Translations under genes and position numbers: made by a program
Origin: Stappia sp. ES.058
GTDB taxonomy: Bacteria > Pseudomonadota > Alphaproteobacteria > Rhizobiales > Stappiaceae
Direction of reading: 5' to 3'
Length of the DNA: 64,000 nucleotides
Assembly: GCF_900105595.1 (NCBI RefSeq)
Contig: NZ_LT629784.1
Location: 62,001-126,000 of the forward strand
The notes under the pieces: generated by a model
Told to the model about the DNA's origin: nothing
Seen by the model: only the letters and a program-made list of their open reading frames with translations
Databases searched by the model: none
Shown here: piece after piece, positions 3,774 through 19,334 of the stretch
Numbering within the stretch: position 1 is the first letter of the stretch
Layout of the letters: the number at the start of each line of letters is the position of its first letter

Positions 3774-3935
3774 CCCCATCCTCCAACATCAGTGCATTGG
3801 AGGCACCCTAGCCGGCTGTATGTGAATCTTAGGTAAAGCGACGGGTGGTTTTGACTATTGGCAACTTTGACGATTCTCGCATTCGGGAGTATTTTTTTGC
3901 AAAAATGTCAGTGCCGCGACGGCAGCTCAAACCAA

Positions 3936-3961
3936 AACGGCGGGACCCGTGTCCCGCCGTT
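3936..3961 (-). terminator. Intrinsic terminator after MCP 2
   Basis: An 11-base perfect stem (3936-3946 with 3951-3961) around the loop CCGT is followed on the minus strand by TTTTGGT. It sits 35 bases beyond the MCP 2 stop and separates that gene from the MCP 1 promoter region. Confidence 0.75.
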
Positions 3962-3995
3962 GCTGTCTGGTCTGTCGCTGTTGTGCGGGCCGTCG

Positions 3996-5711
3996 TCAGG
4001 CAGCGGCCACGTCGTTGAGGAAGCGGTCGATCTCCTCGCGCAGCGCATCGGTGTTCTGCGACATGGCGCCGGAGGCGGAGAGCACATTGTCGGCGGCGGC
4101 GCTGGTGCTTTCCACCGTCGTCGCCAGTTGCGCCATGTTGCTCGTCACCGCGCCCGTTCCCTGTGCGGCCTGCTGCACCGAGCGCGAGATGTCGCTGGTC
4201 GCCGCCCCCTGCTGCTCCACCGCGCTGGCGATGGAGGAGGTGTAGCCGTTCACTTCCTGCATGATCTGGGCGATCTCGCCGATGGCCGAGACGGCCTCGC
4301 CGGTCGAGCCCTGGATCGCGCCGATCTGCGCGCTGATCTCCTCGGTCGCCTTGGAGGTCTGCGTCGCCAGTTCCTTCACCTCGGCCGCCACGACCGCAAA
4401 GCCCTTGCCGGCCTCGCCGGCGCGCGCCGCCTCGATGGTGGCGTTCAGCGCCAAGAGGTTGGTCTGTTCGGCGATGTCGGTGATCAGCTTGACCACCTCG
4501 CCGATCTTGCTGGCGGCCTGGGCGAGCCCCGCGATCTTCTCGTTGGTCGCATGCGTCCCCTCCGTCGCCTGGGAGACGACCTGGGTGGTCTGGCCGACCT
4601 GGCGCGAGATCTCGGCGATGGAGGCGGAAAGTTCCTCCGCCGCACTCGCCACCGTCTGCACGCTGTCGGTCGCCGCCGAGCTTGCATCGGCCGTTTCACC
4701 CGCCCGCGCCGCGCTGTCCTGCGCCGAGGCGCTCAGTTCGCGCGCCGTCTGGTCCAGACCCTGCGCCGTCTCCCCCACCGCGCCGATCAGATGCTGAACC
4801 GTGCCCCGGAAACCCGAAATCAGCTCGTCGGTCCGCGCCTGGCGGGCCCGGGTCCGGTTTTGCGAAGCGTCGCGTTCCGAAGTCAGATCCTCCCGCTCGA
4901 TCGCGCGTTGCTTGAAAACGGCGACGGCCTTGGCAAGCGCTCCGATTTCGTCGCTGCGCCCGGTGAAGGGGATCTCCGCGTCGAGATTGCCGTCGGCGAG
5001 ATCGCGGGCGACGGCCGCGATCTGCGGGATCGGGCGCAGCAGGCGGCGTGCCAGAAGCGCCATGCCGGCGACCGCCACCAGAAGGATCGGAACAAAGGCG
5101 ATCAGAAGCTTGACGGTGACAGTGTCCATCAAGGCGGTGATCTGGGCCTTGCGCACACCGGCGTAGAGAATGCCGGTGATGTCGCCGGCGGGAGAATAGA
5201 TCGGCGCATAGATGGTGAAATAGGGCGTTCCCAGGATCACGGCCTCGCCGCGGAAGGTCTCGCCCTTGGTGACGACCGGGTAGACGGCGCCGGTCTGGCC
5301 AAGCTTCGTGCCGACGGCTCGCGAGCCGTCCGGCTTGATGATGTTGGTGGTCTTGCGCCAGAAATCCCGTGTCTCGGGATCCCACTTGAAGACGGTGGCG
5401 GTCTCGCCGGTCATTCGTCCGATCTTGTCGATCATGCCGTGATCGGTGATCTCGTCGGGAATGTTCTCCATCACCACGCGTGACACGTTTCCGTCCTGTG
5501 CCCAGGTGACCTCGGTGCCCGGCATGTCGCGTTCGACCTCGGTTGCCGCGACCCGCAGGCTGGTGTTCTGCCGGGAAACGGCTTCCTCCTGAATGCGATC
5601 GGAAAGAACGAAGTTCATCACCGCCCCGACTGTTCCAAGTGCGAGAATGATCATGACCGCAGCTGCAAGAGAGACGATGGAAACCAGATTGAGACGTGAA
5701 AGCAAGGCCAT
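3996..5711 (-). CDS. Methyl-accepting chemotaxis protein 2 (Cache_3-Cache_2 sensor)
   Basis: A 571-residue chemoreceptor. After the N-terminal membrane segment (residues about 10-33), the periplasmic part carries typical Cache_3/Cache_2 features: [20 protein letters not shown], then [20 protein letters not shown] and [17 protein letters not shown] (about residues 100-190). Small organic acids are common ligands of such domains, but the ligand here cannot be read from sequence. A second membrane helix ([20 protein letters not shown]) leads into HAMP and the methyl-accepting signalling domain with the tip [19 protein letters not shown]. The signalling half is close to that of MCP 1 and MCP 3 while the sensor halves are unrelated. 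The ATG at 5711 has AGGGG upstream. Confidence 0.93.
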
Positions 5712-5775
5712 GGCGGCAGTCCCCTAAAGATCTAGCGATTTCGTTTCCTGTTCGGAAAGCAAATGCTATCTACAA

Positions 5776-5970
5776 TAGGTAAACTCCCTCTTATACATCT
5801 TACCTAGTGGAGCGAATTTGACATTTGTGTCCCGTTTGCAGCGAGGCTCCTGATCAAATGTCAGATTCAAAAGCTCCACTAAAATCATATATTTACCTAG
5901 TGGTTTTCTTGATTCCGACATTTGCTGCGGCGGTGCTGCAAGGGGAGGTAAATGTCGGAATCGAACCACT
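5776..5970. repeat. Cluster of related palindromes upstream of MCP 2
   Basis: Three inverted repeats lie next to each other in the 325-base gap between MCP 3 and MCP 2. TAGGTAA at 5776-5782 pairs with 5800-5806. The arm at 5806-5827 pairs with 5855-5880 with a four-base offset. The arm at 5899-5923 pairs with 5950-5970 with a four-base bulge. The four long arms resemble each other (AGTGG, then GAATTTGACATTTG or GATTCCGACATTT), and ACCTAGTGG occurs directly repeated at 5802 and 5895. The arrangement looks like a REP/REPIN-type intergenic palindrome pair, but no other copy was seen in the window. The MCP 2 promoter must lie in or next to it. Confidence 0.6.
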
Positions 5971-5980
5971 GGCGGCACAA

Positions 5981-6010
5981 AAAAGCGCGCCCCGATCGGG
6001 GCGCGCTTTT
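5981..6010 (-). terminator. Intrinsic terminator after MCP 3
   Basis: A 30-base perfect palindrome (centre GATC) with A and T runs at its ends begins 27 bases past the MCP 3 stop on the minus strand. The symmetric A/T flanks mean it could act in both directions. Confidence 0.8.
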
Positions 6011-6036
6011 CATGACATGACAGGATGTTTCGTGGG

Positions 6037-7713
6037 TCAGGCCGCCGCGACCTTGTCGAGAAACGCCTCGAACTCGCTCTTCAGCCGGTTCGATGTGTGG
6101 GTGACCTTTCGCGAGGCCTCCAGGACATCGTTGGCGCTTTCTGTCGACTGCCGTGCAGTCGACAGGAGCCCGTCAAGGTCGACGGCAACGGCACGCGTGC
6201 CTTCCGCCGCATGCTGCACGTTGCGCGAGATCTCTCCCGTTGCCGAGCCCTGTTGCTCGACCGCTGCGGCGATGGCGGCCGTATAGCCGTTCACGTCCTC
6301 CATAGTGCGTGCGATAATGCCGATCACGTCGACGGCTTCGCCGGTCGACCCCTGGATCGCACCGATCTGGGCCCCGATCTCCTCGGTCGCCTTGGAGGTC
6401 TGGGTGGCCAGTTCCTTGACCTCTGCGGCCACGACCGCGAACCCCTTGCCGGCCTCGCCGGCGCGCGCCGCCTCGATGGTGGCGTTCAGCGCCAGAAGAT
6501 TGGTCTGCTCGGCGATCGCCTGGATGAGCGTCACGACTTCGCCGATCTTGTTTGCCGCATTGGCGAGACCCGCCACCTTGGCATTGGCATCCTGTGCATT
6601 CACGGTGGCGTCGGTGACGACCTGGGTGGTCTGTCCCACCTGACGCGAGATCTCGGAAATCGAGGCTGCGAGCTCTTCCGCCGCGCTTGCCACTGACTGG
6701 ACGTTTTCGGAGGCGTTTTGCGATGTGTTGGAGGCGCTCGTGGTGCGTTCGGCGCTTGCTGCCGCGGATTGCGAGAGCATTTCGGCGGAGCTGCCGAACG
6801 TCGCGTTTGTCTGCTCCGCTTCGTTGAGAAGATCCGCGATCACGACGCGGAAGTCGCCGATCATGTCATCGATGCGCTTCTGACGCTCGATTTCGGTCGC
6901 CTGGGTGCGCGACTGGTTCGCGCTCAGTTCCTCGCGCTCGATGGCGGCCTCGCGGAAAGCTTCCAGCGCCTGGGCCATGTCGCCGATCTCGTCGCCACGC
7001 TCGACGCCGGGAACCTCGCTCTCGGTGTTGCCGTCGCGCAGGGACCGCATCCGGGCTCCAAGAGCATTGATCGGTTTCGTGATGGAGCGCACCAGCAGCA
7101 TGCAGATGCCGCCGCACAGGGCGAGAATGACCAACACGATTCCCGACAGGCGCAGAAGCTCGGAATAGAAGATGGCGTCCAGGTCGTCGACATAGACGCC
7201 CGTCCCGATCACCCAGCCCCAGGGTTCGAATCCCTGGATGTAGGAATACTTGAGAACCGGCTCTTCCGATCCCGGCTTCGGCCAGTAATATTCGACCAGA
7301 CCGGATCCTTCGGTCTTGGCAAGCTTGACGAATTCCGCAAAGAACTGCGTGCCGTTCTTGTCCTTGAGGGTTTCGAGGTTCTTGCCGACCAATTGGGGCG
7401 CGAACGGATGCATCAGCATGATGTGCTGCATGTCGTTGACCCAGAAATACTCTTCGCCGCCATAGCGCAGCGCCCGCAGCATCTCAGCAGCGTCCAGCTT
7501 GGCCTGTTCCTCGGTCTTGTCGCCGGACTGGGCAAGGGCGTATTCGCGGGCGACCATCGAGGTGGCGGCTTGCACGATATGGGTGAGTTCGGCCTTGCGG
7601 TCTTCCACGAGACGGGTGTGGTAGCCCGACACCTGGATAGCGAGAAGCGCGGCGACGCCTAAAGTGAAGAGCAGAACAAGTGCACCGAGCCGGTGTCCGA
7701 TTTTCAAGTTCAT
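6037..7713 (-). CDS. Methyl-accepting chemotaxis protein 3 (single Cache sensor)
   Basis: A 558-residue chemoreceptor. The start at 7713 (MNLKIGHRLGALVLLF) is chosen over an upstream in-frame start because AGGAAG precedes it and it places the membrane segment correctly at residues 10-30. The periplasmic region has sCache_2 signatures: GEEYFWVNDMQHIMLMHP, GSGLVEYYWPKPG and YIQGFEPWGWVIGTGVYVDD (residues about 80-185). A second membrane helix, HAMP and the MCP signalling domain (tip [19 protein letters not shown]) follow. sCache_2 receptors often sense carboxylates, but that is only family knowledge. It is the first of three consecutive minus-strand receptors, each with its own terminator, so they are probably separate units. 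Confidence 0.93.
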   Translation of the reverse strand: MNLKIGHRLGALVLLFTLGVAALLAIQVSGYHTRLVEDRKAELTHIVQAATSMVAREYALAQSGDKTEEQAKLDAAEMLRALRYGGEEYFWVNDMQHIMLMHPFAPQLVGKNLETLKDKNGTQFFAEFVKLAKTEGSGLVEYYWPKPGSEEPVLKYSYIQGFEPWGWVIGTGVYVDDLDAIFYSELLRLSGIVLVILALCGGICMLLVRSITKPINALGARMRSLRDGNTESEVPGVERGDEIGDMAQALEAFREAAIEREELSANQSRTQATEIERQKRIDDMIGDFRVVIADLLNEAEQTNATFGSSAEMLSQSAAASAERTTSASNTSQNASENVQSVASAAEELAASISEISRQVGQTTQVVTDATVNAQDANAKVAGLANAANKIGEVVTLIQAIAEQTNLLALNATIEAARAGEAGKGFAVVAAEVKELATQTSKATEEIGAQIGAIQGSTGEAVDVIGIIARTMEDVNGYTAAIAAAVEQQGSATGEISRNVQHAAEGTRAVAVDLDGLLSTARQSTESANDVLEASRKVTHTSNRLKSEFEAFLDKVAAA

Positions 7714-8034
7714 GGGGACTTCCTGAAGCTTGCTGGGCCGGGCGGCGACAACAGGACGCCATTCCCGTGAAACAGGGGCTGACCGTTGCACCCCCGTGCC
7801 GCGGTCGTCTGAGCTCAGGAGGACACTCAAACCTGTAATTATTTCCTAAATTTGGGCAAGACGGGTGGGAATTGCCTTCAATAATCGTGCTTATGCAATC
7901 AATAGGGTGTTCTTGACTGCCTGATAAACGCACAGGTTTCAAAATCCGCGCGTCCGGCGTCTTTTCCGGCCGCATCGAATTCCCGCTGCATTTTGCGAAA
8001 CATTGGGGCCGCCACCGCGTCGCAACCGGAGCGC
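7714..8034. other. Intergenic region upstream of MCP 3
   Basis: These 321 bases between the SDR gene and MCP 3 contain no credible gene. The segment around 7840-7915 is AT-rich and should hold the MCP 3 promoter on the minus strand, but no convincing -35/-10 pair with a normal spacer could be chosen. No clear terminator for the SDR gene was seen. Confidence 0.4.
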
Positions 8035-8784
8035 TCAAACGTGCTGGCCGCCATTCACATGCACTTCCGCTCCCGTGACATAGGATGACTGGCTGGAGCA
8101 GAGAAAGAAGATCGTCTCGGCGACTTCTTGCGGCAGGCCGAGCCGGCGCAGGGCAATGTCGCCGATCATGTCCTCGGTTCCCGGCGACAGGATCGCGGTA
8201 TCGATCTCGCCCGGCGAGATGGCATTGACCCGGATGCCGTGCGGCCCGAAGTCGGCCGCCATTTCGCGTGTCAGGCTGGCGAGCGCGGCCTTGGACGTTG
8301 CATAGGCCGTGCCGGCGAAGGGATGGACGCGGATACCGGCGATGGAGGTTACGTTGACGACAGCGCCCTTCGCGGCCGACAGCTCCTTGAAGAGCCCTCG
8401 CGCCAGCAGGATCGGGGCGAAGAAATTCACCTGGAACACCGTGCGCCAGGCGTGCATCGGGGTCGAGAGAGAATTCATCCGGCTGCCATCGGGTTCCTTG
8501 GGGCTGGTCCCGGCGTTGTTGACCAGAGCATGCAACCGCGACCCGCCGTCGACCAGTCGTTTCTGGATTTCCGCCACCGCCACACCCAGGTTTTCAGGGT
8601 CGGACAGATCGACCTGGATGTGATCTTCCGGGCCCGACGGCCACGGACACTTGTCGGAAAACGCATGCCGGGAACAGGTGATGACACGCCAGCCCTCGGC
8701 GGAGAAGCGCTTCACCGTGGCGTGACCGATCCCCCGGCTCGCGCCGGTGAGGACGAGCGTCTTGCGGTCGGTTGGCGAAGTCAT
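8035..8784 (-). CDS. SDR family NAD(P)-dependent oxidoreductase
   Basis: A 249-residue classical short-chain dehydrogenase/reductase. The cofactor loop TGASRGIG is at residues 14-21, the NNAG motif is near residue 89, and the catalytic YATSK is near residue 160 with a Ser in NVTSIAG upstream. The C-terminal VTGAEVHVNGGQ is typical of FabG-like members. The substrate cannot be told; motif spacing fits a 3-ketoacyl, sugar or alcohol oxidoreductase. It is divergent from bfd with about 130 bases between them and has no operon partner. ATG 8784 gives the normal N-terminus. Confidence 0.88.
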   Translation of the reverse strand: MTSPTDRKTLVLTGASRGIGHATVKRFSAEGWRVITCSRHAFSDKCPWPSGPEDHIQVDLSDPENLGVAVAEIQKRLVDGGSRLHALVNNAGTSPKEPDGSRMNSLSTPMHAWRTVFQVNFFAPILLARGLFKELSAAKGAVVNVTSIAGIRVHPFAGTAYATSKAALASLTREMAADFGPHGIRVNAISPGEIDTAILSPGTEDMIGDIALRRLGLPQEVAETIFFLCSSQSSYVTGAEVHVNGGQHV

Positions 8785-8912
8785 GGCGGGAGCCTTTCAG
8801 GTTCGGCGGTACGGGTGGCATTTGCATCCCGCGTCCACCTTCCATATGTAGGCTGGGACGGTGCGCTTGACGAGGGAAAACCGGCCCAAGCCTTAGACGG
8901 ACGGAAACCGGC

Positions 8913-9146
8913 GTGATTGTGTGTTCCTGCAATGTATTGACCGACAAGGAGTTGCGTCGCGCCGCGCGCGAGCTCCAAAGTGGTCCCAATGGTGTGATAG
9001 CCACGCCCGGCGCCGTGTTTCGCGCGCTTGGCAAACGCCCGCGCTGTGGCGGTTGCTTCAGTTCGATCATACCCATCATCCATGAGGAAGCGCCGGAGGA
9101 CCGCATGGTTCCGGGCGCGAAGAGGGAGAGCTCCGATGAAGGGTGA
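8913..9146 (+). CDS. bfd: Bacterioferritin-associated ferredoxin (2Fe-2S)
   Basis: A 77-residue protein that starts with GTG as [14 protein letters not shown]. It has the Bfd cysteine pattern: CxC near residue 4 (CSC) and CGGC near residue 46, which bind a [2Fe-2S] cluster. Bfd docks on bacterioferritin and passes electrons to release stored iron. The bfr start lies 11 bases inside the end of this gene, so the two are translationally coupled, which supports the assignment. The tail after the cluster is a little longer than in E. coli Bfd. No Fur or Irr box could be recognised upstream. Confidence 0.88.
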
Positions 9147-9621
9147 CGTCAAAGTCATCGACTATCTGAACAAGGCGCTGCGTCACGAACTGACGGCGGT
9201 CAATCAATACTGGTTGCATTACCGCCTCGTGGAGGACTGGGGCTATGCAAGGCTCGCCGCCAAGGAGCGCGCGGAATCCATCGAGGAGATGCAGCACGCC
9301 GACAAACTGGTGGAGCGGATCCTGTTCCTGGAGGGCTTTCCCAACATGCAAAGCCTCGATCCCTTGCGCATAGGCCAGTCGCTGAAGGAGGTGATGGAGG
9401 CCGATCTCGCCGGCGAGTATTCCGCTCGCGCGCTCTATCGCGAGGCCCGCGAGATCTGCAAGACGGCTTCCGACTATGTGACCCTGCGCCTGTTTGAGGA
9501 ACTGCTCGGCGACGAGGAGGATCACATCGATTATCTGGAAACCCAGCTGCAACTGATCGAGCAGATCGGCATCGAGCGCTACGGCCTGCTGCAGGCGGCG
9601 CCCGCCGGAGAGACTGCCTGA
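9136..9621 (+). CDS. bfr: Bacterioferritin
   Basis: This 161-residue protein begins [20 protein letters not shown], matching the family N-terminus, so ATG 9136 is used although the frame is open further upstream. Ferroxidase residues Glu18, Glu51 and His54 are present, and [15 protein letters not shown] supplies the later Glu and Glu-x-x-His ligands. Met52, the haem axial ligand between subunits, is conserved in EEMQHADK. It would assemble as the 24-subunit cytoplasmic iron-storage cage. GGGAGAG lies upstream of the start. It overlaps bfd by 11 bases, in the order bfd-bfr. Confidence 0.95.
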
Positions 9622-9624
9622 CGC

Positions 9625-9649
9625 GAGCCCGGGAAAAGGGGGCTCCTTT
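9625..9649 (+). terminator. Possible weak terminator after bfr
   Basis: GAGCCC at 9625-9630 pairs with GGGCTC at 9640-9645 across a nine-base loop and is followed by CTTT. The stem is short and the T run poor, so termination here is only possible. The converging ATP-grasp gene ends about 100 bases further on. Confidence 0.35.
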
Positions 9650-9742
9650 GTCGGTGCGGATCTGGGGCGAGGATCGATTTCGGGCGACGCCGCTCTCGTT
9701 GAGGTGGTCCGTCGCGTCGGTCAGCCTGCGTCGGCATGGATG

Positions 9743-10702
9743 CTACGCGGGGTCCGCGATCAACGCGTCGGCCAGCGCAGCGCTGATCGGAAGGCCTGCC
9801 TCCGTTTCAAGCCACAGGTACTGTCCGCCCGTGTTGACCTCGAGGAACCAGTAGGTCCCCTGCGCGTCGGTGCGGAAATCATAGGCACCGTAGCGCAGAC
9901 CGAGTTTTCGATGAAACGCGATCAAGTCGGCCTCGAAATCCTTCGGCAGGATGTGAGGGAGGGTCCGCGAATTGGGGTCGATACGCCAGTCCACGGCCGC
10001 CTGCGGCGCGCTCACGGCAATCTCGGCGGCGAATGCCCGCTCATCGACCACCGTGATCCGGATATCGCTGCCGCCGGTTATTTTTTTCTGAAACTGAACC
10101 GGACTGCACCTGAGCGTTTCGAGCTTTGAAAGACCTTGTGGGGTGAGCTTGCGGGTAAACGGCGTTTCCATCCCCGGATTGTTGCTCAGAGTCTTGAAGA
10201 TCACCGCGCCATTGTGATCTTCGTAAAATGATCGCACCTCGTCCGGGTCGTTGGAAATCAGGGTCGCAGGCACCTTGAGCCCCGCCTGTTCGGCCATCAT
10301 CAGCTGATACGGCTTGTTGCGGCAAATCATCTCCACCGCGAAAGGGTTCACGAGCTTGCGGCCGAGGGCGTGCATCCAGCCGTCCAGGAGAACCTGGGTC
10401 TCCCGGTAGCAAAACCGTCGCTCATCCTTGTCTTCGACGCCGTCGGGAACACGAAAAGGGTGCGTCCGGCGCCACCATATACCGCTAACCTGGTCTGCGG
10501 TCAGGCTCCTCCCGTCGGGAAGCGACAGATGGTATCCACCGTCCGTCCCGCCACCAAGGGCGTGGGACAGGGCAAGAGACGCCGGCAGGTCCTCAAGGTT
10601 TATGGTCGTCGATGCGACGTTCCGGTTGGACAGCTCCCATGCAACAACACGCGCATGCAGATCGTCTTCCGACGCGATGATAATCGCATGACCGTGGCTC
10701 AC
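9743..10702 (-). CDS. MvdD-like ATP-grasp RiPP maturase (graspetide synthetase)
   Basis: A 319-residue ATP-grasp ligase resembling the macrocyclases of graspetides (microviridin MvdC/MvdD, plesiocin PsnB, thuringinin TgnB), which form ester or amide links between side chains of a precursor. Family features are the N-terminal GIWWRR (residues 74-79), the central ATP-binding lysine segment VIFKTLSN (168-174), the FQKKITGGSDIRITVVD strand pair (204-220), and the metal-binding end YDFR...FLEVNTGGQYLWLE (274-299), close to the EVNPxGQW motif of this group. The GTG start lies three bases after the stop of the small upstream gene, as expected for a precursor-maturase pair. No acetyltransferase, peptidase or dedicated exporter is adjacent. 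Precise product chemistry is unknown. Confidence 0.82.
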   Translation of the reverse strand: MSHGHAIIIASEDDLHARVVAWELSNRNVASTTINLEDLPASLALSHALGGGTDGGYHLSLPDGRSLTADQVSGIWWRRTHPFRVPDGVEDKDERRFCYRETQVLLDGWMHALGRKLVNPFAVEMICRNKPYQLMMAEQAGLKVPATLISNDPDEVRSFYEDHNGAVIFKTLSNNPGMETPFTRKLTPQGLSKLETLRCSPVQFQKKITGGSDIRITVVDERAFAAEIAVSAPQAAVDWRIDPNSRTLPHILPKDFEADLIAFHRKLGLRYGAYDFRTDAQGTYWFLEVNTGGQYLWLETEAGLPISAALADALIADPA

Positions 10703-10705
10703 GAC

Positions 10706-10969
10706 TTATTCTTTGTCGGGATGGTCGAGCTTCGTATGGCCGTCGAGATCTGAATCGTACGGGCTGGGATTGCCTTTCGGCGTCGCCGTGCTCTTTTCAT
10801 AGCTGGTTCGTGTGTCGTCGATCGCGGCGGTCTGCGATCTGTAGGCGTCGAGATCTATGCCGCGCGCTTTGAAAAACGCGGTATCGCCGGCAAGAAGGCC
10901 GTCCCGGTGCTCGACATCGCGAACAATCGGATCGGCGGAAGAATCATGCGAGAATGCAAAGGGTCTCAT
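10706..10969 (-). CDS. Putative graspetide precursor peptide
   Basis: An 87-residue hydrophilic protein with no recognised domain, starting MRPFAFSHDSSADPIVRD at ATG 10969 behind AGAAAGG (a TTG at 10993 is a weaker alternative). Its place directly before the ATP-grasp gene, with a three-base gap, marks it as the likely substrate. The front half would be the leader; the aromatic RPFAF near the N-terminus recalls the PFF-type recognition motif of microviridin leaders. The C-terminal 35 residues would be the core. They contain many Thr/Ser (53, 55, 56, 60, 61, 63, 69, 73, 79) able to be ester donors, four Lys, and acidic residues (Glu58, Asp72, 74, 76, 82, 85, Glu87) able to be acceptors. No Cys is present. 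The peptide function is inference. Confidence 0.7.
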   Translation of the reverse strand: MRPFAFSHDSSADPIVRDVEHRDGLLAGDTAFFKARGIDLDAYRSQTAAIDDTRTSYEKSTATPKGNPSPYDSDLDGHTKLDHPDKE

Positions 10970-11017
10970 CTGGAAAACCTTTCTGTAATACAAAATATCA
11001 TCAAAAACTCTAGGGCA

Positions 11018-11046
11018 AGTATACCCTATGCAATTCTTGCAATCAA
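11018..11046 (-). promoter_or_regulatory. Sigma-70-type promoter of the graspetide unit
   Basis: On the minus strand TTGATT (11046-11041) and TATACT (11023-11018) are separated by exactly 17 bases, about 50 bases upstream of the precursor ATG. The surrounding stretch 10970-11120 is AT-rich compared with neighbouring DNA. The promoter lies after ynjD, so the peptide unit has its own transcription start and is probably not read only from the ynj genes. Confidence 0.65.
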
Positions 11047-11177
11047 TACGGGTTGGTCGGCTCCATGCGATGACCCCGAAAACTTCGCGAAATCGTTCAA
11101 CTTATTGATCTGAATAATTTTTAGCTGTTTTCGCGGTGCCGTGCCCGCGGCCTTCCTAAAAAGTCCCCGGCTCGCGG

Positions 11178-11849
11178 CTATTGCGCGTTAAGCGTGACGA
11201 CTGCGCCGTCGGCGGCGGCTGCGTCCGCCTCATCGTGCGTGACAAGCAGCACCGGAAGGCCGCGGGCGCGGGCCATGTCGAACACCAGGTCGCGGATCTG
11301 CCCCCTCAGCGCCATGTCGAGCCTGGAGAAGGGCTCGTCGAGAAGGAGCGCACGCGGCGCGCTGACCAGCACCCGCATCAAGGCGACGCGCGCTTTCTGG
11401 CCGCCGGAGAGCGTGGCCGGGTCGCGGTCCTCGAGTCCGGATAGTCCGACCTCCTCGAGCGCATCGGCGATGGCAGCCCTGCGCGTGGCGCGGCCGCGCA
11501 AGCGCGGCGGCAGCGCGAAGGCCAGATTTTCGCCGACGGAGAGATGCGGAAACAGCAACGCATCCTGGAACAAAAGACCCATGTGGCGCTCATGCGCGGC
11601 AAGCCGGGTGACATCCGTGCCATCGACCAGAACGGCACCTGTCGCCGAAAACACCGGATCGAGAAAGCCGGCCGCATACGCAAGCAGGGTTGATTTGCCG
11701 ACCCCTGACGGTCCCATCACCGTGAGGACCTCGCCGGGGCGCACCTCTGCATCCAGCGCAATCAGCGGCTGTCCGGCGCGGGTGATCCTGACATCGTCGA
11801 AACGCAGGCCGTGGGCAGGTGTTGCGGGCATTGTCGATGCGTCCGTCAT
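11178..11849 (-). CDS. ynjD: YnjD-type ABC transporter ATP-binding protein
   Basis: A 223-residue ABC ATPase. The Walker A loop GPSGVGKST lies near residue 40, the Q-loop in LLFQDALLFPHLSVGENL, the signature LSGGQKARVALMR near 138, Walker B ALLLDEPFSRLD, and the switch histidine in LLVTHDEADA. The ATG at 11849 overlaps the permease stop (ATGA), so the upstream extension of this reading frame is not used. It energises the YnjC permease at the inner membrane. Short importer ATPases of this kind are often labelled thiamine (ThiQ-like), but the partner binding protein is of YnjB type, so the substrate is left open. Confidence 0.87.
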   Translation of the reverse strand: MTDASTMPATPAHGLRFDDVRITRAGQPLIALDAEVRPGEVLTVMGPSGVGKSTLLAYAAGFLDPVFSATGAVLVDGTDVTRLAAHERHMGLLFQDALLFPHLSVGENLAFALPPRLRGRATRRAAIADALEEVGLSGLEDRDPATLSGGQKARVALMRVLVSAPRALLLDEPFSRLDMALRGQIRDLVFDMARARGLPVLLVTHDEADAAAADGAVVTLNAQ

Positions 11850-13528
11850 ATCGAGGGCTGAAGGTCCCGGCGGGCGCGAAAGGCGACACCAGGCACCAGT
11901 GCGGCCAGCGCGAAGGCCAGAAACGGCAGCGCCATCTGCAGCAGCGCGTAGATGGCGATAAGCCTGCGGTTGCCGCCCGCCGCCAGCGCGACCGCTTCCG
12001 TCGTCACGCTGGCGATCCGTCCGCCGCCGATCAGCAGCGTTGGCAGATATTGCGCAACAGAGACTGCGATCCCGAGGGCCGCCGCCGTTGCGGTTGCGCG
12101 AAGGGCGAGCGGCAGGCGCACGCGCCAGAACACGCGGTCGGGCGCGGCCCCGAGCGCGGTGGCGATATGGCCGTAGCGCGGATCGGCGGCACGCCACGGA
12201 TCGGAGAGCGCCAGAAACACATAGGGAAGCACGAAGACGAGATGGGCAAGTGCCACCGCGCCCAGCGTATCGTGCAGCCCGCAGACGAGGAACAGGACCT
12301 GCAGGCCGAAGAGAAAGGCGATTTGCGGCACGATCAGCGGTACATAGAGAAGCGGCAGCGTCCGGTGCCGAAGCGCCCGGCCCCTGCGGGTCTCGCCTTC
12401 CAGACAGGCAAGCGCGAGGACAACGGCAAGCGCGGTTACCGGCAGCGCGACGGCAAGCGTCACGCCGACGGCTTCGAGCACTCCGCCAAGATGCAACATC
12501 CAGTTTTGCAGCGACAGATGTGCCGGAAGCGCATCGGGGAACCGCCACGGCCCCGCGAAGGACCACAGGCCCAGGACGCAAAGCCCGCAGAGCAGGGCGC
12601 CGACAAGCGTGACCATTGCCGCCGCGGCAAGAACCGCGAGCGATCTGTCGGCGAGGGTGCGTCGTCCGGCGGCGATCCAGCGTCGTCCGGCGACTTTTGC
12701 AAGCTGTTCGCCTGCTATCCAAAGAGCGATTGCGGACAGGCTGATGACGAGTTGCAAGAGCGCACCGGCAGACGCCATGAACCGAAAGGAGAGGTCCGGA
12801 TCGTTCATCCATGCGACCAGCCGCACGGCAAGCGGGGCGGGCGTCGTCGGTCCCAGGATCAGCGCCACATCGACGACCGACGTGGCATAGGCGAGCACCG
12901 CGAAGACCGGCAGGCGGATTTGCGGATAGACGCGGGGCAGAACGACCTTGAGCCAGCCGGTGACGGGCGCGTATCCAAGGCCGGTCGCGATGCGCCGCGC
13001 GGCCGGCGATTTCGTCTGCGGGAGCGCCGCCAGCACCATCAGGAACAGAAAGGGGATCTCCTTCGCCATCAGCCCGAAGGTCATCGCAAGCCCCGCAGGA
13101 TCGCCGATGACGAGCACATCGGGGGGGCGTGTCATGCCGCTTGCCCAGGGCGAGACGAGCCGCATCGCCCAGCCGGAGGGCGCGATCAGGAAGGCGAGGC
13201 CGAAGGCGGCGGCGGCATGCGGCACGGACAGAAGCGGCGACAGCAGGAGCCTTACCCCACGAAACATTCGCGTGCCCTCGAAGGCGGCGGTAAACAGCAT
13301 GACGAGGGTGAAGGCGCCAAGGGTCGCTGCCAGCCCGGTGAACAGGCTGAGCAGAACGGAGGTGGCCAGTCCCGGCTGAGAGAGGAGCGCGCGCGCCGGG
13401 TCAAGCGACACTGTCGTGCCCCCGAGGGGCGGCACGAAGCCGAAAGCCGGCAGCAGCGTTCCCGCCAGCCCCGCGATCACCGGTCCAAGCATCAAGGCCA
13501 GCGTGACAAATGGCGCCGCCTTCAACAT
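11846..13528 (-). CDS. ynjC: YnjC-type ABC transporter permease (double unit)
   Basis: A 560-residue inner-membrane protein with about twelve membrane segments arranged as two fused permease halves. Each half has an EAA-like loop: GLGYAPVTGWLKVVLPRVYP near residue 203 and ALGAAPDRVFWRVRLPLALR near residue 468. The single-chain, two-half build matches YnjC of the uncharacterised YnjBCD importer. It overlaps ynjD by four bases and follows ynjB after 28 bases, so the three genes form one operon read in the order ynjB-ynjC-ynjD. ATG 13528 leads directly into the first membrane segment. Confidence 0.87.
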   Translation of the reverse strand: MLKAAPFVTLALMLGPVIAGLAGTLLPAFGFVPPLGGTTVSLDPARALLSQPGLATSVLLSLFTGLAATLGAFTLVMLFTAAFEGTRMFRGVRLLLSPLLSVPHAAAAFGLAFLIAPSGWAMRLVSPWASGMTRPPDVLVIGDPAGLAMTFGLMAKEIPFLFLMVLAALPQTKSPAARRIATGLGYAPVTGWLKVVLPRVYPQIRLPVFAVLAYATSVVDVALILGPTTPAPLAVRLVAWMNDPDLSFRFMASAGALLQLVISLSAIALWIAGEQLAKVAGRRWIAAGRRTLADRSLAVLAAAAMVTLVGALLCGLCVLGLWSFAGPWRFPDALPAHLSLQNWMLHLGGVLEAVGVTLAVALPVTALAVVLALACLEGETRRGRALRHRTLPLLYVPLIVPQIAFLFGLQVLFLVCGLHDTLGAVALAHLVFVLPYVFLALSDPWRAADPRYGHIATALGAAPDRVFWRVRLPLALRATATAAALGIAVSVAQYLPTLLIGGGRIASVTTEAVALAAGGNRRLIAIYALLQMALPFLAFALAALVPGVAFRARRDLQPSI

Positions 13529-13556
13529 GGATGCGCCGCCATGGGCTCTTGCATCG

Positions 13557-14795
13557 TCACCGAGCCGCGTAGCGTTTCGCCCACGCGCGTTCCAGTTCCG
13601 TCATCCAGCTTGCATGCGGTTCGTCGATCACGGGGCCGAGCGCGTCGGGGGCAAGCGTCGCGATGCCGAGATCGAGCGTCGAGAAGCGCTCCTTGTCGTC
13701 CGCCTCCAGCCGGTCCACGGCGAGCACCGTCGGGTCGCCCCAGATATCCGGGTCCTGTTTGCGCGCCTGCGCTTCCGGCGAGATCAGGAAATTTGCAAGC
13801 ACCAGAGCGCCGGCCTTGGCGGAGGCATTGAAGGGAATGGCGACGAAATGGGCGTTGCCGATGGTGCCGCCGTCGAGCACGAAGGTGCGCACCGTGTCGG
13901 GGAGTTCTCCCGAGGCGATCGCCGCCGATGCGCCCGAGGGATTGAAGGTGAAGGCGATGTCCACTTCGCCGTCGCCCAGAAGTTGGCGCATTGCCGGCTG
14001 ATTCTGCGGAAAGGCCCGGCCTTGCCGCCACATGTTCGGGTGCAGGACGTCGAGATAGGCGAAGAGCGGCGCGGTGTCGGCCTCGAAGGTTTCGGGATCG
14101 ACCGGGCGGGTGAGCTTTCCCGGATCGTCGATCGTTGTCGCCAGAACCTGCTTCAGGAAGGTCGAGCCGTGAAAATTCGGCGGCTGCGGGTAGGTGAAAC
14201 GGCCCGGATTTTCGGCGATATAGGCGGCTAACGCGGCGAGCGTTTTCGGCGGGTCGGCAAGCGTCGCGGTGTCATGCATGAAGACGAGCTTGGCCATGCC
14301 CCAGGGGCTTTCCAGTCCGTCGGTCGGTTCGGTGAAATCCGTGACCACGGCCGGCTTGTTCGCAACGTCGACCAGCGGCCAGTTCGGCAGCTTCGTTGCC
14401 CAGCCGGGGCTCATCAAGAGGCCGGCCTTTTTCAGTGAGACGAAATTCTCGCCGTTGATCCACACCAGATCGACCGCGCCGCCCGTCTCCTTGCCCGCCG
14501 CCTTTTCCGCGACGATACGACTGACGACATTGGCGGTATCGCTGACCTTGACCTGTTCGACCGTCACGCCGTGGCGGTCCTGCAGCACCCCGCCCGCCCA
14601 GTCGATGAAGGCGTTGATGCGCGGCTCGCCGCCCCAGGCATGGAAATACACCGTCTGTCCGTGCGCCGCCTCCAGCACGGCGTCCCAGTTTGCCGGATCC
14701 GGCGATTGCGCCCGCCCCGGAGCAGTTGCGACCAGCGCGATGGCGACGGCGAGAACCGTTTTCAGAAACGGTGCCTGCGGAAAACGGCGATGCAT
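13557..14795 (-). CDS. ynjB: YnjB-type ABC transporter substrate-binding protein
   Basis: A 412-residue periplasmic binding protein with a cleavable signal peptide ending at about GRA-QS (residue 29). The mature part begins with the characteristic ANWDAVLEAAHGQTVYFHAW of the YnjB group (COG4134), distinct from thiamine-binding ThiB and from spermidine or iron binders of the same fold. It is the first gene of the ynjBCD operon. The substrate of this importer is not established for any member known to me. AAGG-rich sequence precedes the ATG. No TPP riboswitch or other leader fold was recognised in the 100 bases upstream. Confidence 0.86.
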   Translation of the reverse strand: MHRRFPQAPFLKTVLAVAIALVATAPGRAQSPDPANWDAVLEAAHGQTVYFHAWGGEPRINAFIDWAGGVLQDRHGVTVEQVKVSDTANVVSRIVAEKAAGKETGGAVDLVWINGENFVSLKKAGLLMSPGWATKLPNWPLVDVANKPAVVTDFTEPTDGLESPWGMAKLVFMHDTATLADPPKTLAALAAYIAENPGRFTYPQPPNFHGSTFLKQVLATTIDDPGKLTRPVDPETFEADTAPLFAYLDVLHPNMWRQGRAFPQNQPAMRQLLGDGEVDIAFTFNPSGASAAIASGELPDTVRTFVLDGGTIGNAHFVAIPFNASAKAGALVLANFLISPEAQARKQDPDIWGDPTVLAVDRLEADDKERFSTLDLGIATLAPDALGPVIDEPHASWMTELERAWAKRYAAR

Positions 14796-14896
14796 GGTCG
14801 GTCCTTCCCTTTTTGCTTTAGGTGCAAGAGCTTGCCGCGAGGGTCAAGACACGGCTTCGTGACGGGTGCGTCAGCGCGGCGCGGTTTTGCAATGCG

Positions 14897-15391
14897 TCAG
14901 TCGAGCGCCAGCACATGGGTGTCCTTGACCTCTTCCATCACCGCGTAGGTGTGGGTTTCGCGCACGCCGGGAAGGTCGAGCACGGCATCGGCCAGAAGCT
15001 TGCGGTAGGACGCCATGTCGGACACCCGCGCCTTTACCAGATAATCGAACCCGCCGGCCACCATGTGGCATTCCAGCACCTGCGGGACGCGCTTCACGGC
15101 GCGGGCGAAGGCGTCGAACACCTCCGGCGTCGTGCGGTCGAGCTTCACCTGCAGGAAGATCAGCAGGCCCTGGCCAAGCTTCACCGGATCGAGTTCGGCG
15201 GAAAAGCGCAGGATGTATCCCTCCCGCACCAGCCGCTTCATCCGCTCTGCCGTGGCCGTCGGCGACAGGTTGACCCGCGCCGCCAGATCCGTTGTCGTGA
15301 TGCGCCCGTCGCCCTGCAGCACGCCGAGGATACGACGGTCGGTGCGATCGAGCGATGCGGTTTCCTCTGTTGAATTCGGTTTCACCGGCAA
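14897..15391 (-). CDS. putR: Lrp/AsnC family regulator, probable proline-responsive PutR
   Basis: A 164-residue Lrp-type protein. An HTH spans about residues 17-62 (LDRTDRRILGVLQGDGRITTTDLAARV...SPTATAERMKRL), followed by a RAM domain with MVAGGFDYLVKARVSDMASY. It is divergent from putA with a 137-base shared upstream region, the arrangement of putR-putA in alphaproteobacteria, where PutR activates putA in response to proline. The name rests on family and position rather than on any specific residue. It ends about 100 bases from ynjB and is not part of that operon. Confidence 0.85.
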   Translation of the reverse strand: MPVKPNSTEETASLDRTDRRILGVLQGDGRITTTDLAARVNLSPTATAERMKRLVREGYILRFSAELDPVKLGQGLLIFLQVKLDRTTPEVFDAFARAVKRVPQVLECHMVAGGFDYLVKARVSDMASYRKLLADAVLDLPGVRETHTYAVMEEVKDTHVLALD

Positions 15392-15413
15392 TTCCTCTGA
15401 ATTCTTGGATGAT

Positions 15414-15435
15414 TTCCATCAGAATATCGGTGGAA
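15414..15435. promoter_or_regulatory. Candidate operator in the putR-putA intergenic region
   Basis: TTCCA at 15414-15418 and TGGAA at 15431-15435 form an inverted repeat with an AT-rich centre, the general form of an Lrp-type site. It lies between the two divergent genes, where PutR should bind. Assignment is by position and symmetry only. Confidence 0.3.
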
Positions 15436-15528
15436 TACGCGTTAGACTATCGAAAATGAAGGTGGGTCTGATGCGCGCGCCGCGCGCGGTGGCCGCCGGA
15501 CCCGTTGCAGCATCGTCAGGAGAAGAGC

Positions 15529-18500
15529 ATGAGCCAGTCCGCCGAACGTGCAGCCGTGGCATCGCCCGGCCCCGGGCTTTCGCCGTTTCGCGCCGCCTTT
15601 GCCCCGGCAGATGAAAAGGTCGTGCGGGAACTCGTTGCGCATGTCGGCTTCGACACGGGTGGCGAGGCGCGCGTCGATGACATCGCCTCCGATTACGTCC
15701 ACACGATCCGCTCCGCCATCGGCGGGCTTGGCGGCGTGGAGGATTTCCTGCGCGAATACGGGCTTTCGACCCGCGAGGGCCTGGCGCTGATGGTGCTGGC
15801 CGAGGCGCTGTTGCGGGTGCCGGACGCCAAGACCGCCGACAAGCTGATCGAGGACAAGCTTGCCGCCGCGCGCTTCAACGAGAGCGAGCACGGCCCTTCC
15901 GACACCTGGCTCGTGTCCGCGTCGTCCTGGGCGCTGGGCGTCACCTCGCAGCTCATTCACCCGGGCGAAAAGCCGAACACGATCCTCGCCTCGCTGGTCA
16001 AGCGCATGGGCATGCCGGCGGTGCGCGCCGCAACCCGTCAGGCGATGCGGGTCTTGGGACACCAGTTCGTGCTCGGCGAGACCATCAAGGCGGCGTTGTC
16101 ACGTGCGAAGTCACAGGAATCCAAGGGTTACCGCTATTCCTACGACATGCTGGGAGAGGGCGCACGCACCGCCGACGACGCGGAGCGCTACTTCAAGTCC
16201 TATGCCGACGCCATCGAGGCGATTGGCGCGGGCGCCGGCAAGAAAGACCTGCCGGACCGGCCCGGCATTTCGGTCAAGCTTTCCGCCCTGCACCCGCGCT
16301 ACGAGGCCGTCAAGGGCACCCGCGCGCGCGACGAGATCGCGCCGCGTCTCCTGAAGCTGGCGCAGGCGGCCAAGCGTCACGACCTCAACTTCACGGTGGA
16401 TGCGGAGGAGGCCGACCGGCTGGAGATCTCGCTGGATATCTTCGCAGCCGTTGCCGCCGATCCCTCGCTCGCCGGCTGGGACGGACTGGGCCTTGCCATT
16501 CAGGCCTATCAGAAGCGCGCACTGGAAACGGTCAACTGGGTGATCGATCTCGCCACGAGCCTCGACCGCAAGTTCATGGTGCGGCTGGTCAAGGGCGCCT
16601 ATTGGGATACGGAGATCAAGCGCGCGCAGGAACGCGGACTGGATGATTTTCCGGTCTTCACGCGCAAGGCGGCGACCGATCTCTCTTATCTTGCCTGCGC
16701 CCGCGCGATGCTCGCCGCCCGTCCGCGCCTTTATCCGCAGTTCGCCACCCACAACGCTTTGTCGGTGGCGCAGGTGATCACCATGGCCGGCAACGACGGG
16801 GGCTTCGAGTTCCAGCGCCTGCATGGCATGGGCGAAAGCCTGTTCAAGGCGGTGTCGGAACGCGACGGGCATCCGTGCCGGATCTATGCGCCGGTCGGCG
16901 GTCACCGCGATCTGTTGGCCTATCTGGTGCGCCGTCTTCTGGAAAACGGCGCCAACTCCTCCTTCGTGTCGGCGGTGGGCGATTCCGCCGTGCCGATTTC
17001 CAGGCTGCTCGCCCGCCCGCAGGATGTGCTGGCCGGCGGCACCAAGGCGCGCAATCCGAAGATCCCGCTGCCGCGCGATCTCTATGGCGAAAGCCGCGAC
17101 AACTCGAAGGGGCTGGAGTTCGGCTATGCCGCCGACCGCATCGCATTGACCGAGGCGATCGCAGCCGCTCCCGCGAAGATCGAGGAGGCCCGCCCCCGCT
17201 ACCCCGGAGCGCCGAAGACCGGCGCGACGCGCGACGTGTTGTCGCCGGTCGATGGCACACCGGTCGGTGTCGTTCGCGAGGCCGGGGCCGGGGAGGTTGG
17301 AAAGCTGTTCGACGTTGCCCAGAAGGGCTTTGCAAGCTGGTCGCGCACGCCGGTCGATGTGCGCGCCAGGGCACTCGCAAAGGTCGGCGATCTGCTGGAG
17401 CGCGACAGTGCGAAACTGATGGCGCTGATGGCGCGCGAGGCGGGCAAGACACTGCCCGACGGACTGGCGGAAGTGCGTGAGGCCGTCGATTTCTGCCGCT
17501 TCTATTCAGCCGAAGCGGAAAAGCTCTTCGGCGAGGGCGTGTTGATGCCCGGACCGACGGGCGAGGAAAACCGCTATCGGTTCCGTGGGCGCGGCGTCTT
17601 TGTCTGCATTTCGCCCTGGAACTTCCCGCTCGCCATCTTCCTCGGCCAGGTGACGGCGGCGCTTCTTGCCGGCAACGCGGTGATCGCCAAGCCCGCCGAC
17701 CAGACGCCGCTCATCGCCCATGAGGCGGCGAAGCTTCTTTATGAGGCCGGCGTGCCGGAGGATGTCTTTCTGCTTGCACCCGGCGGGCGCGAACTGGGCG
17801 CGGCCATTGTCGCGGAGCCGCGCGTCGCCGGCGTCGCCTTCACCGGCTCGACCGAGACGGCCTGGGCGATCAACAGGGCCTTGGCCGAAAAACGCGGTCC
17901 CATCGTGCCGCTGATCGCGGAGACCGGCGGCATCAACGCCATGCTGGTCGATGCGACGGCGCTTCCCGAGCAGGTCTGCGACGACGTGATGATGTCGGCC
18001 TTCCGCTCCGCCGGGCAGCGCTGCTCGGCGCTGCGGCTGCTGTATCTGCAGGAGGATGTCGCCGACAAGCAGCTCACCATGCTGAAAGGGGCGGCCGCGG
18101 AAATGTCGCTGGGCGATCCGGCCGATCCCGCGACCGACATCGGTCCGGTGATCGATGCGGCGGCCCGCGACAAGCTGATGGCGCATGTCGAGGAGATGCG
18201 GGCGAAACAGAAGGTGACCTATGCCGGCCCGACGCCGGAGGGCGACCATGCCGATGGCACCTGGGTCGCGCCGCATATCGTGGAACTCGACAGGCCGGAC
18301 GCGCTGGAAAAGGAAACCTTCGGCCCGATCCTGCATGTGGTGCGCTACAAGGCTGTTGATCTGCCGAAGATGCTGGAGACCATCGCTGCGACCGGCTACG
18401 GGCTGACGCTCGGCGTGCACTCGCGCATCGACGCGACGGTGGCGCAGGTGGTCGACCGGCTGTCGGTCGGCAATGTCTACGTCAACCGCAACACCATCGG

Positions 18501-18669
18501 CGCCGTCGTCGGCACCCAGCCCTTCGGCGGCTCGGGCCTCTCCGGCACGGGACCCAAGGCCGGCGGGCCGGGCTATCTGCCGCGTTTCGCGCTGGAGCAG
18601 GTGGTCTCGATCAACACGGCCGCCGCCGGCGGCAACGCCAGCCTGATCGCCATGGCCGAGGAGGATTGA
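15529..18669 (+). CDS. putA: Bifunctional proline dehydrogenase / P5C dehydrogenase
   Basis: This 1046-residue PutA oxidises proline to glutamate: a FAD-dependent PRODH barrel, then an NAD-dependent glutamate-semialdehyde dehydrogenase. PRODH motifs include [16 protein letters not shown] (about residue 358) and [20 protein letters not shown] (about 460). The dehydrogenase half has [28 protein letters not shown], the catalytic Glu in [10 protein letters not shown] and the nucleophile in [10 protein letters not shown] (about residue 830). There is no N-terminal ribbon-helix-helix, so it should not repress its own gene; the divergent putR fits that. ATG 15529 follows AGGAGAA. The length places it among the shorter PutAs without the extra C-terminal domain. 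Confidence 0.97.
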
Positions 18670-18677
18670 GGGATTTC

Positions 18678-18727
18678 TTGTTAGAGGTGCTCATTTGGGC
18701 TACATTTAAGGCTCGAAGGAGCACCTC
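18678..18727 (+). promoter_or_regulatory. Promoter and operator palindrome of the relB-yafQ pair
   Basis: TTGTTA (18678-18683) and TACATT (18701-18706) stand 17 bases apart. A nine-base inverted repeat, GAGGTGCTC at 18684-18692 and GAGCACCTC at 18719-18727, brackets the -10 region and the AAGGAG ribosome site. Antitoxin or complex binding to such a repeat would autoregulate the pair, as is known for RelB/DinJ systems. Confidence 0.6.
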
Positions 18728-18728
18728 A

Positions 18729-18998
18729 ATGCCTCAAAATGCTTACGTCAGGGCACGCATCGATCCGGCCTTGAAAAATGACGCCACGCTTGTGCTCGAC
18801 AGTCTGGGATTGACCATCTCGGACGTCGTGCGCATGACGTTGACGCGAATTGCCCGTGAGAAAGCCCTTCCGATCGAGCTGACGCGCCCGAATGCCGAAA
18901 CCATTGCCGCGATGGAAGAAGCCAGAGCGCTGAGTGCGGAGCGCAACGGGCGCTTCGACACAGCCGATGGTCTGATCAATGCTCTGGAAGGGCGCTGA
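18729..18998 (+). CDS. relB: RelB/DinJ family antitoxin
   Basis: An 89-residue protein with an N-terminal ribbon-helix-helix (NAYVRARIDPALKNDATLVL, then DSLGLTISDVVRMTLTRIA), the DNA-binding and dimerisation part of RelB/DinJ antitoxins, and an acidic, probably flexible C-terminus that would wrap the toxin. ATG 18729 follows AAGGAG; the reading frame extends upstream but overlaps the promoter. The toxin gene begins at the next base after its stop codon. It sits between putA and hrpB and belongs to neither, so it is probably an acquired module. Confidence 0.85.
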   Translation: MPQNAYVRARIDPALKNDATLVLDSLGLTISDVVRMTLTRIAREKALPIELTRPNAETIAAMEEARALSAERNGRFDTADGLINALEGR

Positions 18999-19334
18999 TT
19001 GGGTTCGGGGAGAAAACGCGGGAAGCCGGCGTCTTCAAAAAGGGCTCGGCTTCCGCGCCGCTCGGACCACACCAAGATCTTCTCCAAGGACTGGAGCCGT
19101 CTTAACCGCACCGGTCGGTTCGACATGGCAAAGCTCAAGGGCGTCATGGGCTTGATCGTTTCGAACGACGCTCCGTTGCCGCCTGAGTTAAACGACCATC
19201 CCTTGACAGGGGACTGGCGCGACCATCGCGAATGTCACATTGGGGGCGACTTTCTGCTGATCTATCTGCTCGACGAGAATAAGAACCTGGTGATTTTCGT
19301 GAGAACGGGAACGCACGCCGAACTCTTCGAATAA
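18999..19334 (+). CDS. yafQ: YafQ-family mRNA interferase toxin
   Basis: The conserved part (about residues 47-110) matches the YafQ/RelE fold: DHPLTGDW, HRECHIGGDFLLIY, and VRTGTHAELF. It retains the His, Asp, Arg and final His-Phe positions used by YafQ for ribosome-dependent mRNA cleavage. The start appears to be a TTG directly after the antitoxin stop, in the same frame, with AGGG about eight bases before it. The first 36 residues are Arg/Lys-rich (RKRGKPASSKRARLPRR) and longer than the E. coli N-terminus. The next ATG (19125) would cut into the fold. Toxicity would be held by the RelB partner. Confidence 0.82.
   Translation: MGSGRKRGKPASSKRARLPRRSDHTKIFSKDWSRLNRTGRFDMAKLKGVMGLIVSNDAPLPPELNDHPLTGDWRDHRECHIGGDFLLIYLLDENKNLVIFVRTGTHAELFE

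Follow-up and report, generated by a model that had tools for sequence, protein, structure and literature searches.

Graspetides form a class of macrocyclic peptides in which, as set out in the text of a 2026 survey, an Asp or Glu side chain is phosphorylated in an ATP-dependent step and a Ser, Thr, or Lys residue attacks the resulting acyl phosphate (PMC13097080). The same text describes microviridins and plesiocin as potent protease inhibitors. In its account of rosaritide (group 21), the connectivity is S8-D22, S9-D26, and T11-D24, and synthesis needs a PpiC partner protein (PMC13097080). An earlier survey from 2022 describes 174 graspetide families (PMC8939145), and the 2026 survey text adds 19 groups to 24 (PMC13097080).

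The window, that is, the whole 64,000-nucleotide stretch of DNA that was analysed, carries two adjacent minus-strand genes. We hold with high confidence that they encode a graspetide precursor and its synthetase and form a minimal two-gene biosynthetic cassette:

10706..10969, minus strand: precursor peptide gene, 87 amino acids, with full-length homologues and conserved N- and C-terminal blocks (ATG at 10969, TAA at 10708-10706)
9743..10702, minus strand: graspetide synthetase (ATP-grasp macrocyclase) gene, 319 amino acids, GTG start, assigned by HMMs, PDB sequences, and predicted fold

The arrangement given in the original prediction was confirmed at both coordinates: the 87-codon ORF (10969-10706) contains no Cys and its TAA is separated by a 3-nt spacer from the GTG at 10702 that opens the enzyme gene (10702-9743). 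The locus shares with the graspetide class a precursor directly upstream of the enzyme, a putative leader in which a Pro precedes hydrophobic residues, and Ser/Thr donors placed before Asp acceptors. Its enzyme resembles MdnB/MdnC (microviridin), PsnB (plesiocin), CdnC (chryseoviridin), and PruB in sequence, predicted fold, and catalytic residues. The locus differs from these systems in its core pattern, and its surroundings lack an acetyltransferase, a protease, a RiPP-type exporter, and a further synthetase. The pair looks like a small, uncharacterised graspetide branch. Its precursor motif was not found in the consulted parts of the 2022 (PMC8939145) and 2026 (PMC13097080) surveys, and none of the graspetide papers searched also names Bradyrhizobium. 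We regard the pair as a small new family within a well-known class, although a survey may already list it in its supplementary tables.

The ATP-grasp enzyme

GIWWRR and FLEVNTGGQYLWLE, which had been singled out as close to motifs of the microviridin and plesiocin macrocyclases, are both present in the 319-residue ORF, and the profiles matched are those of graspetide synthetases (TIGR04187, 8e-69; MvdC, 4e-55; MvdD, 1e-47). The best NCBIfam match, over the full length, was TIGR04187 (GRASP_SAV_5884, ATP-grasp ribosomal peptide maturase), but its score of 232.1 bits lies under the curated cut-off of 350. Likewise, the MvdC and MvdD equivalog scores reached 187 of 425 and 162 of 475 bits, and in none of its NCBIfam matches does the enzyme reach the curated cut-off. 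The Pfam MvdD pre-ATP-grasp N-terminal domain was found above its cut-off.

The six best PDB sequence matches are all solved graspetide synthetases; PruB, too, makes a graspetide. An AlphaFold2 model built on 19 sequences had a pLDDT of 91 and a pTM of 0.88. In a Foldseek search with this model, ranks 1-32 were taken by chains of MdnC, AMdnB, CdnC, PruB, MdnB, and PsnB, all of them graspetide macrocyclases, at 24-30% identity to the solved synthetases in the Foldseek alignments. All five PDB alignments examined retain the tandem Arg of WWRR, D275, R240, and E288-x-N290. The fold matches that follow are RimK and LysX, which would fit a RimK-like ligase that adds amino acids to a peptide and is not a macrocyclase. 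We consider such an activity extremely improbable: RimK/LysX appear only after rank 32, below all graspetide chains and far weaker (best E value 3e-16 vs 1e-29), and the enzyme has the MvdD N-terminal domain. Sequence and predicted structure thus strongly support the assignment of the 319-residue protein as a graspetide synthetase. No second synthetase was found in the genome.

Precursor homologues and linkage to the enzyme

The precursor matched no NCBIfam model, target-peptide models included. An HMM search of 13 aligned precursors against Pfam returned three families at E values of 0.013 or weaker, and none of these matched the window precursor. In a set of 5.8 billion proteins, the small ORF had four close homologue clusters (E values 2e-49 to 5e-29, 69-95% identity). 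The nearest one, P0003 (95% identity, two members), may also stand for the copy in the window; neither the P0003 sequence nor its contig of 873,867 bases is that of the window. A profile search brought the precursor clusters to 10 in all at E ≤ 1. Since the profile included ORFs from the loci L037, L038, and L039, three of its six additional matches (P0126-P0128) are copies or near-copies of query rows, and the other three (P0129-P0131) are new to the profile. Within the genome no second precursor was found. Weak precursor matches in relatives were dismissed as noise, the best non-self match having an E value of 5e-4 and a stop inside it.

Loci of related enzymes were collected by an alignment scan of genome contigs, which gave 246 confirmed relatives; the best 80 of the 246 were kept, and upstream ORFs were inspected at 26 of these 80, mostly proteobacterial. 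Genome contigs were also scanned with the enzyme sequence alone, which gave 38 pattern matches and no relative among them. Three loci have a precursor-family ORF immediately upstream of the enzyme: in L037 (Rhodobacter sp. MAG) it ends 44 nt before the enzyme match begins, in L038 (Caulobacteraceae MAG) 58 nt, and in L039 (Bradyrhizobium sp.) 91 nt. At L036 (Pseudolabrys) the upstream ORF is divergent but similar at its N-terminus. For 8/10 precursor clusters, the longest contig is of equal size to that of a relative enzyme (873867, 1843, 1188472, 35168, 6952, 2171, 1733, and 106857 bases); P0126 and P0128 have no enzyme relative on an equally sized contig. Equal size is strong but indirect evidence that precursor and enzyme lie on the same contig. 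The co-occurrence of the small gene with the enzyme thus extends to other genomes and, together with enzyme sequence and predicted fold, strongly backs the original prediction of a graspetide-like RiPP system.

When L036-L121 were searched with a permissive regular expression of the core, L038 and L039 matched, as did seemingly unrelated ORFs in L083, L096, and L113, and L037 was missed, so a match to this pattern does not by itself prove kinship. In a quick maximum-likelihood tree of 76 enzymes, with SH-aLRT support only, the window enzyme groups with P0007-P0010 (SH-aLRT 99) inside a set of 17 rows (98). Precursors of this core type belong to the window enzyme, to P0007-P0013 (via contig size), and to L037/P0019, L038, and L039/P0017 within the set. 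Every tree row with a found precursor of this core falls in the set, which also holds L036, with its divergent precursor, and P0014-P0016, for which no precursor was found. Relatives of the synthetase are patchy: at E ≤ 1e-25 they occur in 6/385 genomes of the class, counting the one that holds the window, and the 13 other genus members have none. Across nine loci (window 2001-19000 and L036-L043), no shared neighbour ORF of ≥110 amino acids was found besides the enzyme; the remaining shared pairs consisted of enzyme-antisense ORFs and of two weak ones, L039/L040 and L041/L043. With this locus, the class of macrocyclic peptides gains a small precursor-enzyme family that is scattered across Alphaproteobacteria.

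Upstream ORFs of other kinds were seen at several other loci. By eye, five alphaproteobacterial ORFs (L044 7546-7953, L046 7680-7967, L051 1884-2240, L072 7608-7910, and L017 1003-1380) have an N-terminus that looks like a signal, either twin-arginine or hydrophobic, and after it an FA(R/K/G)xF-like block that resembles the microviridin leader, and 4/5 end in a CxxCPK tail; they are possibly graspetide precursors that bear an export signal. At L083 (6322-6906, gammaproteobacterial MAG), three short, closely spaced ORFs upstream of the synthetase each end in ETTDDD, which makes a multi-precursor graspetide locus likely. The upstream ORF at L060 (3070-3480, Nitrosomonas MAG) has repeated DT-x-KE-like units and is a possible repeat-type precursor.

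Core conservation and proposed rings

The alignment divides the precursor into two parts:

10814..10969, minus strand: leader region, residues 1-52 (inferred boundary), with MRPFAFS and FFKARGID blocks
10709..10813, minus strand: core region, residues 53-87 (inferred boundary), with a donor block, a Pro-rich loop, and an acceptor block

All 13 aligned precursors show MxPF...FFxxR(G/D)I followed by a core of the form T...D-S, usually K-S-T-x-T...D-S-D, and M1, P3, F4, F32, F33, R36, I38, T63, D72, and S73 are invariant in 13/13. The expected Thr/Ser-to-Asp pattern is therefore kept in homologues, with T63 and D72 as its fixed points. In the leader, the window's PFAFSH is only a loose fit to the published graspetide motif Phhx(1,2)h (text of PMC8939145). 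We rejected a GG cleavage motif at A27-G28, as the window's A27-G28 is not conserved among the 13 aligned precursors.

In the core, the donor block comprises T53, T55, K59, S60, T61, and T63 and the acceptor block D72, D74, D76, and D82. We compared eight representatives, the subset of the 13 from which near-duplicates were left out. T63, D72, and S73 are invariant in 8/8 and T55, K59, S60, T61, P64, and D82 in 7/8. Five core columns are all S, T, or K and thus qualify as conserved donors; at the positions of T53 and T55, 8/8 have S, T, or K. On the acceptor side, D82 is Asp in 7/8, D74 is replaced by K in 2/8, and D76 by K or N in two others. Residue conservation thus places the donors at 53-63 and the acceptors at 72-82, on either side of a Pro/Gly-rich loop. 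With D74 and D76 variable, the family has no constant set of acceptors, and covariation does not reveal how the rings are paired. Among the five closest sequences, the tail HTKLDHPDKE equals the proposed ring residues in being invariant, and the ring model does not account for it.

Microviridin cores carry the motif TxKxPSD followed by acidic residues. The original prediction had set the present core apart from this motif, and we agree: TPKGNPSPYDSD resembles a stretched TxKxPSD only loosely, and K65 and S69 vary in homologues, so a microviridin-type core was rejected.

From these patterns we propose the following mechanism. The N-terminal part of the precursor, judged by its conservation, would be a leader recognised by the ATP-grasp enzyme. 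By analogy with the class, the enzyme would phosphorylate Asp carboxylates in the core, and Ser, Thr (or Lys) side chains would attack to form several macrolactones or macrolactams. The likeliest rings would connect S60/T61/T63 (perhaps also T53, T55, and K59) to D72/D74/D76 (perhaps also D82) across the Pro/Gly-rich loop; we give these positions, read from sequence, about an even chance of being right. We expect at least two and most likely three cross-links (36-54 Da loss), within a predicted range of two to four. The suggestion of a new graspetide topology is, on the present comparison, possible.

As a refinement within the same class, the core might form a stem-loop with four or more nested or mixed cross-links that join T53, T55, and K59-T63 to D72-D82. 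The conserved S, T, or K at positions 53 and 55 and the near-invariant D82 would fit such an arrangement, as would the P0131 peptide, which terminates exactly at D82, and nested stem-loops are described for fuscimiditide and amycolimiditide (text of PMC12291112). The conservation of T53, T55, and D82 could, however, instead reflect leader-proximal binding or protease recognition, and we entertain this extended pattern only tentatively, at somewhat less than an even chance.

We also considered that the pair might be a member of the rosaritide group, with three interlocked macrolactones S60-D72, T61-D76, and T63-D74. In the window core, donors lie at 0,1,3 and acceptors at 0,2,4, exactly as they are spaced in rosaritide, across a loop that is two residues shorter; 80 of 20,000 shuffles of the 35 core residues show this pattern, which was chosen post hoc. 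Unlike rosaritide, the window has no PpiC partner, no adjacent PCAT, and no GG-type leader. The PpiC partner model TIGR04500 had no match in the genome at E ≤ 0.001; searched in 25 of the 80 locus genomes, it was present in four. At three PpiC-linked loci (L075, L081, and L108), the leader of the precursor is of another kind and terminates in LVNGG, with no counterpart in the window precursor. The window enzyme lies on a different branch from the rosaritide group, as judged from the L075 enzyme, which stands in for MirB and falls outside the window's side of the tree (L081 and L108 are not in the tree). Variation at D74 and D76 also speaks against membership. With no PpiC partner, an unrelated leader, and L075 elsewhere in the tree, we rejected membership of group 21, which we consider very unlikely, and did not file the pair there. 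The block spacings nevertheless equal those of rosaritide, so the connectivity may be one already seen.

The three loci just named, L075 7589-7924, L081 7709-7933, and L108 7671-7886 (Herbidospora, Acrocarpospora, and Microbispora), are presumably relatives of the rosaritide group; for L081 the link to PpiC comes from contig coordinates.

The pair comprises only two genes, has a compact core, and lacks a known partner protein, which makes it an easy test case for ring number and donor-acceptor pairing, and likewise for the formation of rosaritide-like rings from rosaritide-like spacing without a PpiC partner.

Genomic setting of the pair

The pair lies in a segment between two convergent genes that is edged by a short inverted repeat:

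9136..9621, plus strand: left flank, bacterioferritin gene bfr (TIGR00754 over cut-off), the downstream neighbour of the pair
9622..11177, no strand: 1556-bp segment between bfr and the ABC ATPase gene, with no counterpart in 13/13 congeners
9622..9634, plus strand: left copy of the 13-nt inverted repeat, CGCGAGCCCGGGA, starting at the base after the bfr stop
11164..11176, minus strand: right copy, reading CGCGAGCCGGGGA on this strand, one base away from the stop of the ATPase gene
11178..11849, minus strand: right flank, ABC transporter ATPase gene (predicted start), its 3' end convergent with bfr

In 13/13 congeners, the ABC ATPase gene and bfr are likewise convergent neighbours whose stop codons lie -43 to 87 bp apart (-43 bp in L135), and none of the 13 has a graspetide gene in this interval. 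The window's interval of 1556 bp carries only the precursor and synthetase genes. The two repeat copies are complementary at 12/13 positions. The pattern CGCGAGCCNGGGA has exactly two matches in the 4.63-Mb genome, both at the segment edges and in opposite orientation; as the backwards control of the pattern has four matches, the rarity of the repeat is unremarkable in itself and only its placement at both edges is notable. By eye, the repeat is absent from the congener intervals, which prevents a base-by-base alignment of the junction. Local RNA folding did not exceed shuffles at either repeat copy or downstream of the enzyme gene (z 0.15, -0.72, and 0.20). The repeat may mark the ends of the cassette itself, or it may be a terminator hairpin that was split in two when the cassette entered its loop.

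The 13 empty congener sites, taken with a two-gene segment edged by a repeat, point to a minimal cassette that was probably acquired laterally. We think it quite likely, with good but not full confidence, that the pair entered the lineage as a unit by insertion between the two convergent genes. The repeat could instead be a shared terminator hairpin of these genes, in which case the segment would be no recent insertion and the pair would have been lost in the congeners. The congener intervals are short and some look hairpin-like by eye, as this history would have it. It requires a loss in each of 13 congeners, though, and is at odds with the patchy occurrence of synthetase homologues (the 6/385 class genomes) and with the low G+C of the precursor (0.57) and its upstream region (0.46) compared with the window (0.65); we regard it as unlikely. 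Going further than insertion as a unit, the segment could be a self-contained 1.5-kb mobile unit, bounded by the 13-nt repeat and carrying only precursor and synthetase, that makes an undescribed ring topology with up to four or more cross-links and leaves leader removal and export to the host. This combination, too, seems to us improbable. Entry of the pair by insertion remains our preferred reading, and the empty-site comparison offers a concrete example of a precursor-synthetase pair apparently entering a genome as a unit.

Upstream of the precursor gene, we found candidate signals for expression:

11018..11046, minus strand: sigma-70-like promoter TTGATT-17-TATACT, weak (one found, 0.4 expected in shuffles)
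11011..11028, minus strand: dyad TAGGGTATACTTGCCCTA overlapping the -10 box, terminator-like in the scan (one found vs 1.7 in shuffles), a possible operator by its position
10978..10984, minus strand: Shine-Dalgarno-like AGAAAGG, identified by reading the sequence, 8 nt upstream of the ATG

The pair had been predicted to have its own promoter. The single sigma-70-like site in 9550-11300, against 0.4 ± 0.6 in shuffles, and the Shine-Dalgarno-like site agree with this claim, which we grade as suggestive only.

Leader removal and export would not be encoded nearby. HMM tests of the neighbours revealed no protease and no exporter, PCAT included, in line with what had been noted originally: the pair is flanked by bacterioferritin and an ABC import-like operon. 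The ATPase is nearest to ThiQ, under the cut-off, the permease gave weak matches only, and the substrate-binding protein matched NF008633 over the cut-off; by these matches the three genes upstream of the pair look like an ABC import operon. The earlier proposal that leader removal must come from elsewhere holds in this setting. The genome's sole C39 peptidase match, about 3 Mb away on the contig in an NHLM-like transporter, was rejected as a dedicated protease/exporter. The transporter scored 584 bits against a TIGR03796 cut-off of 853, and congeners without the synthetase have comparable matches (589-613 bits in G005, G007, and G008; 836 in G004), so it is not specifically linked to the pair.

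By eye, this transporter (G000:C1:3068342-3070393, L122) is a peptidase-containing NHLM-like ABC transporter with the C39 motif ECGAACL and lies beside an HlyD-like adaptor ORF. Elsewhere in the window, three consecutive minus-strand ORFs (1338-3779, 3996-5711, and 6037-7830) resemble methyl-accepting chemotaxis receptors by eye.
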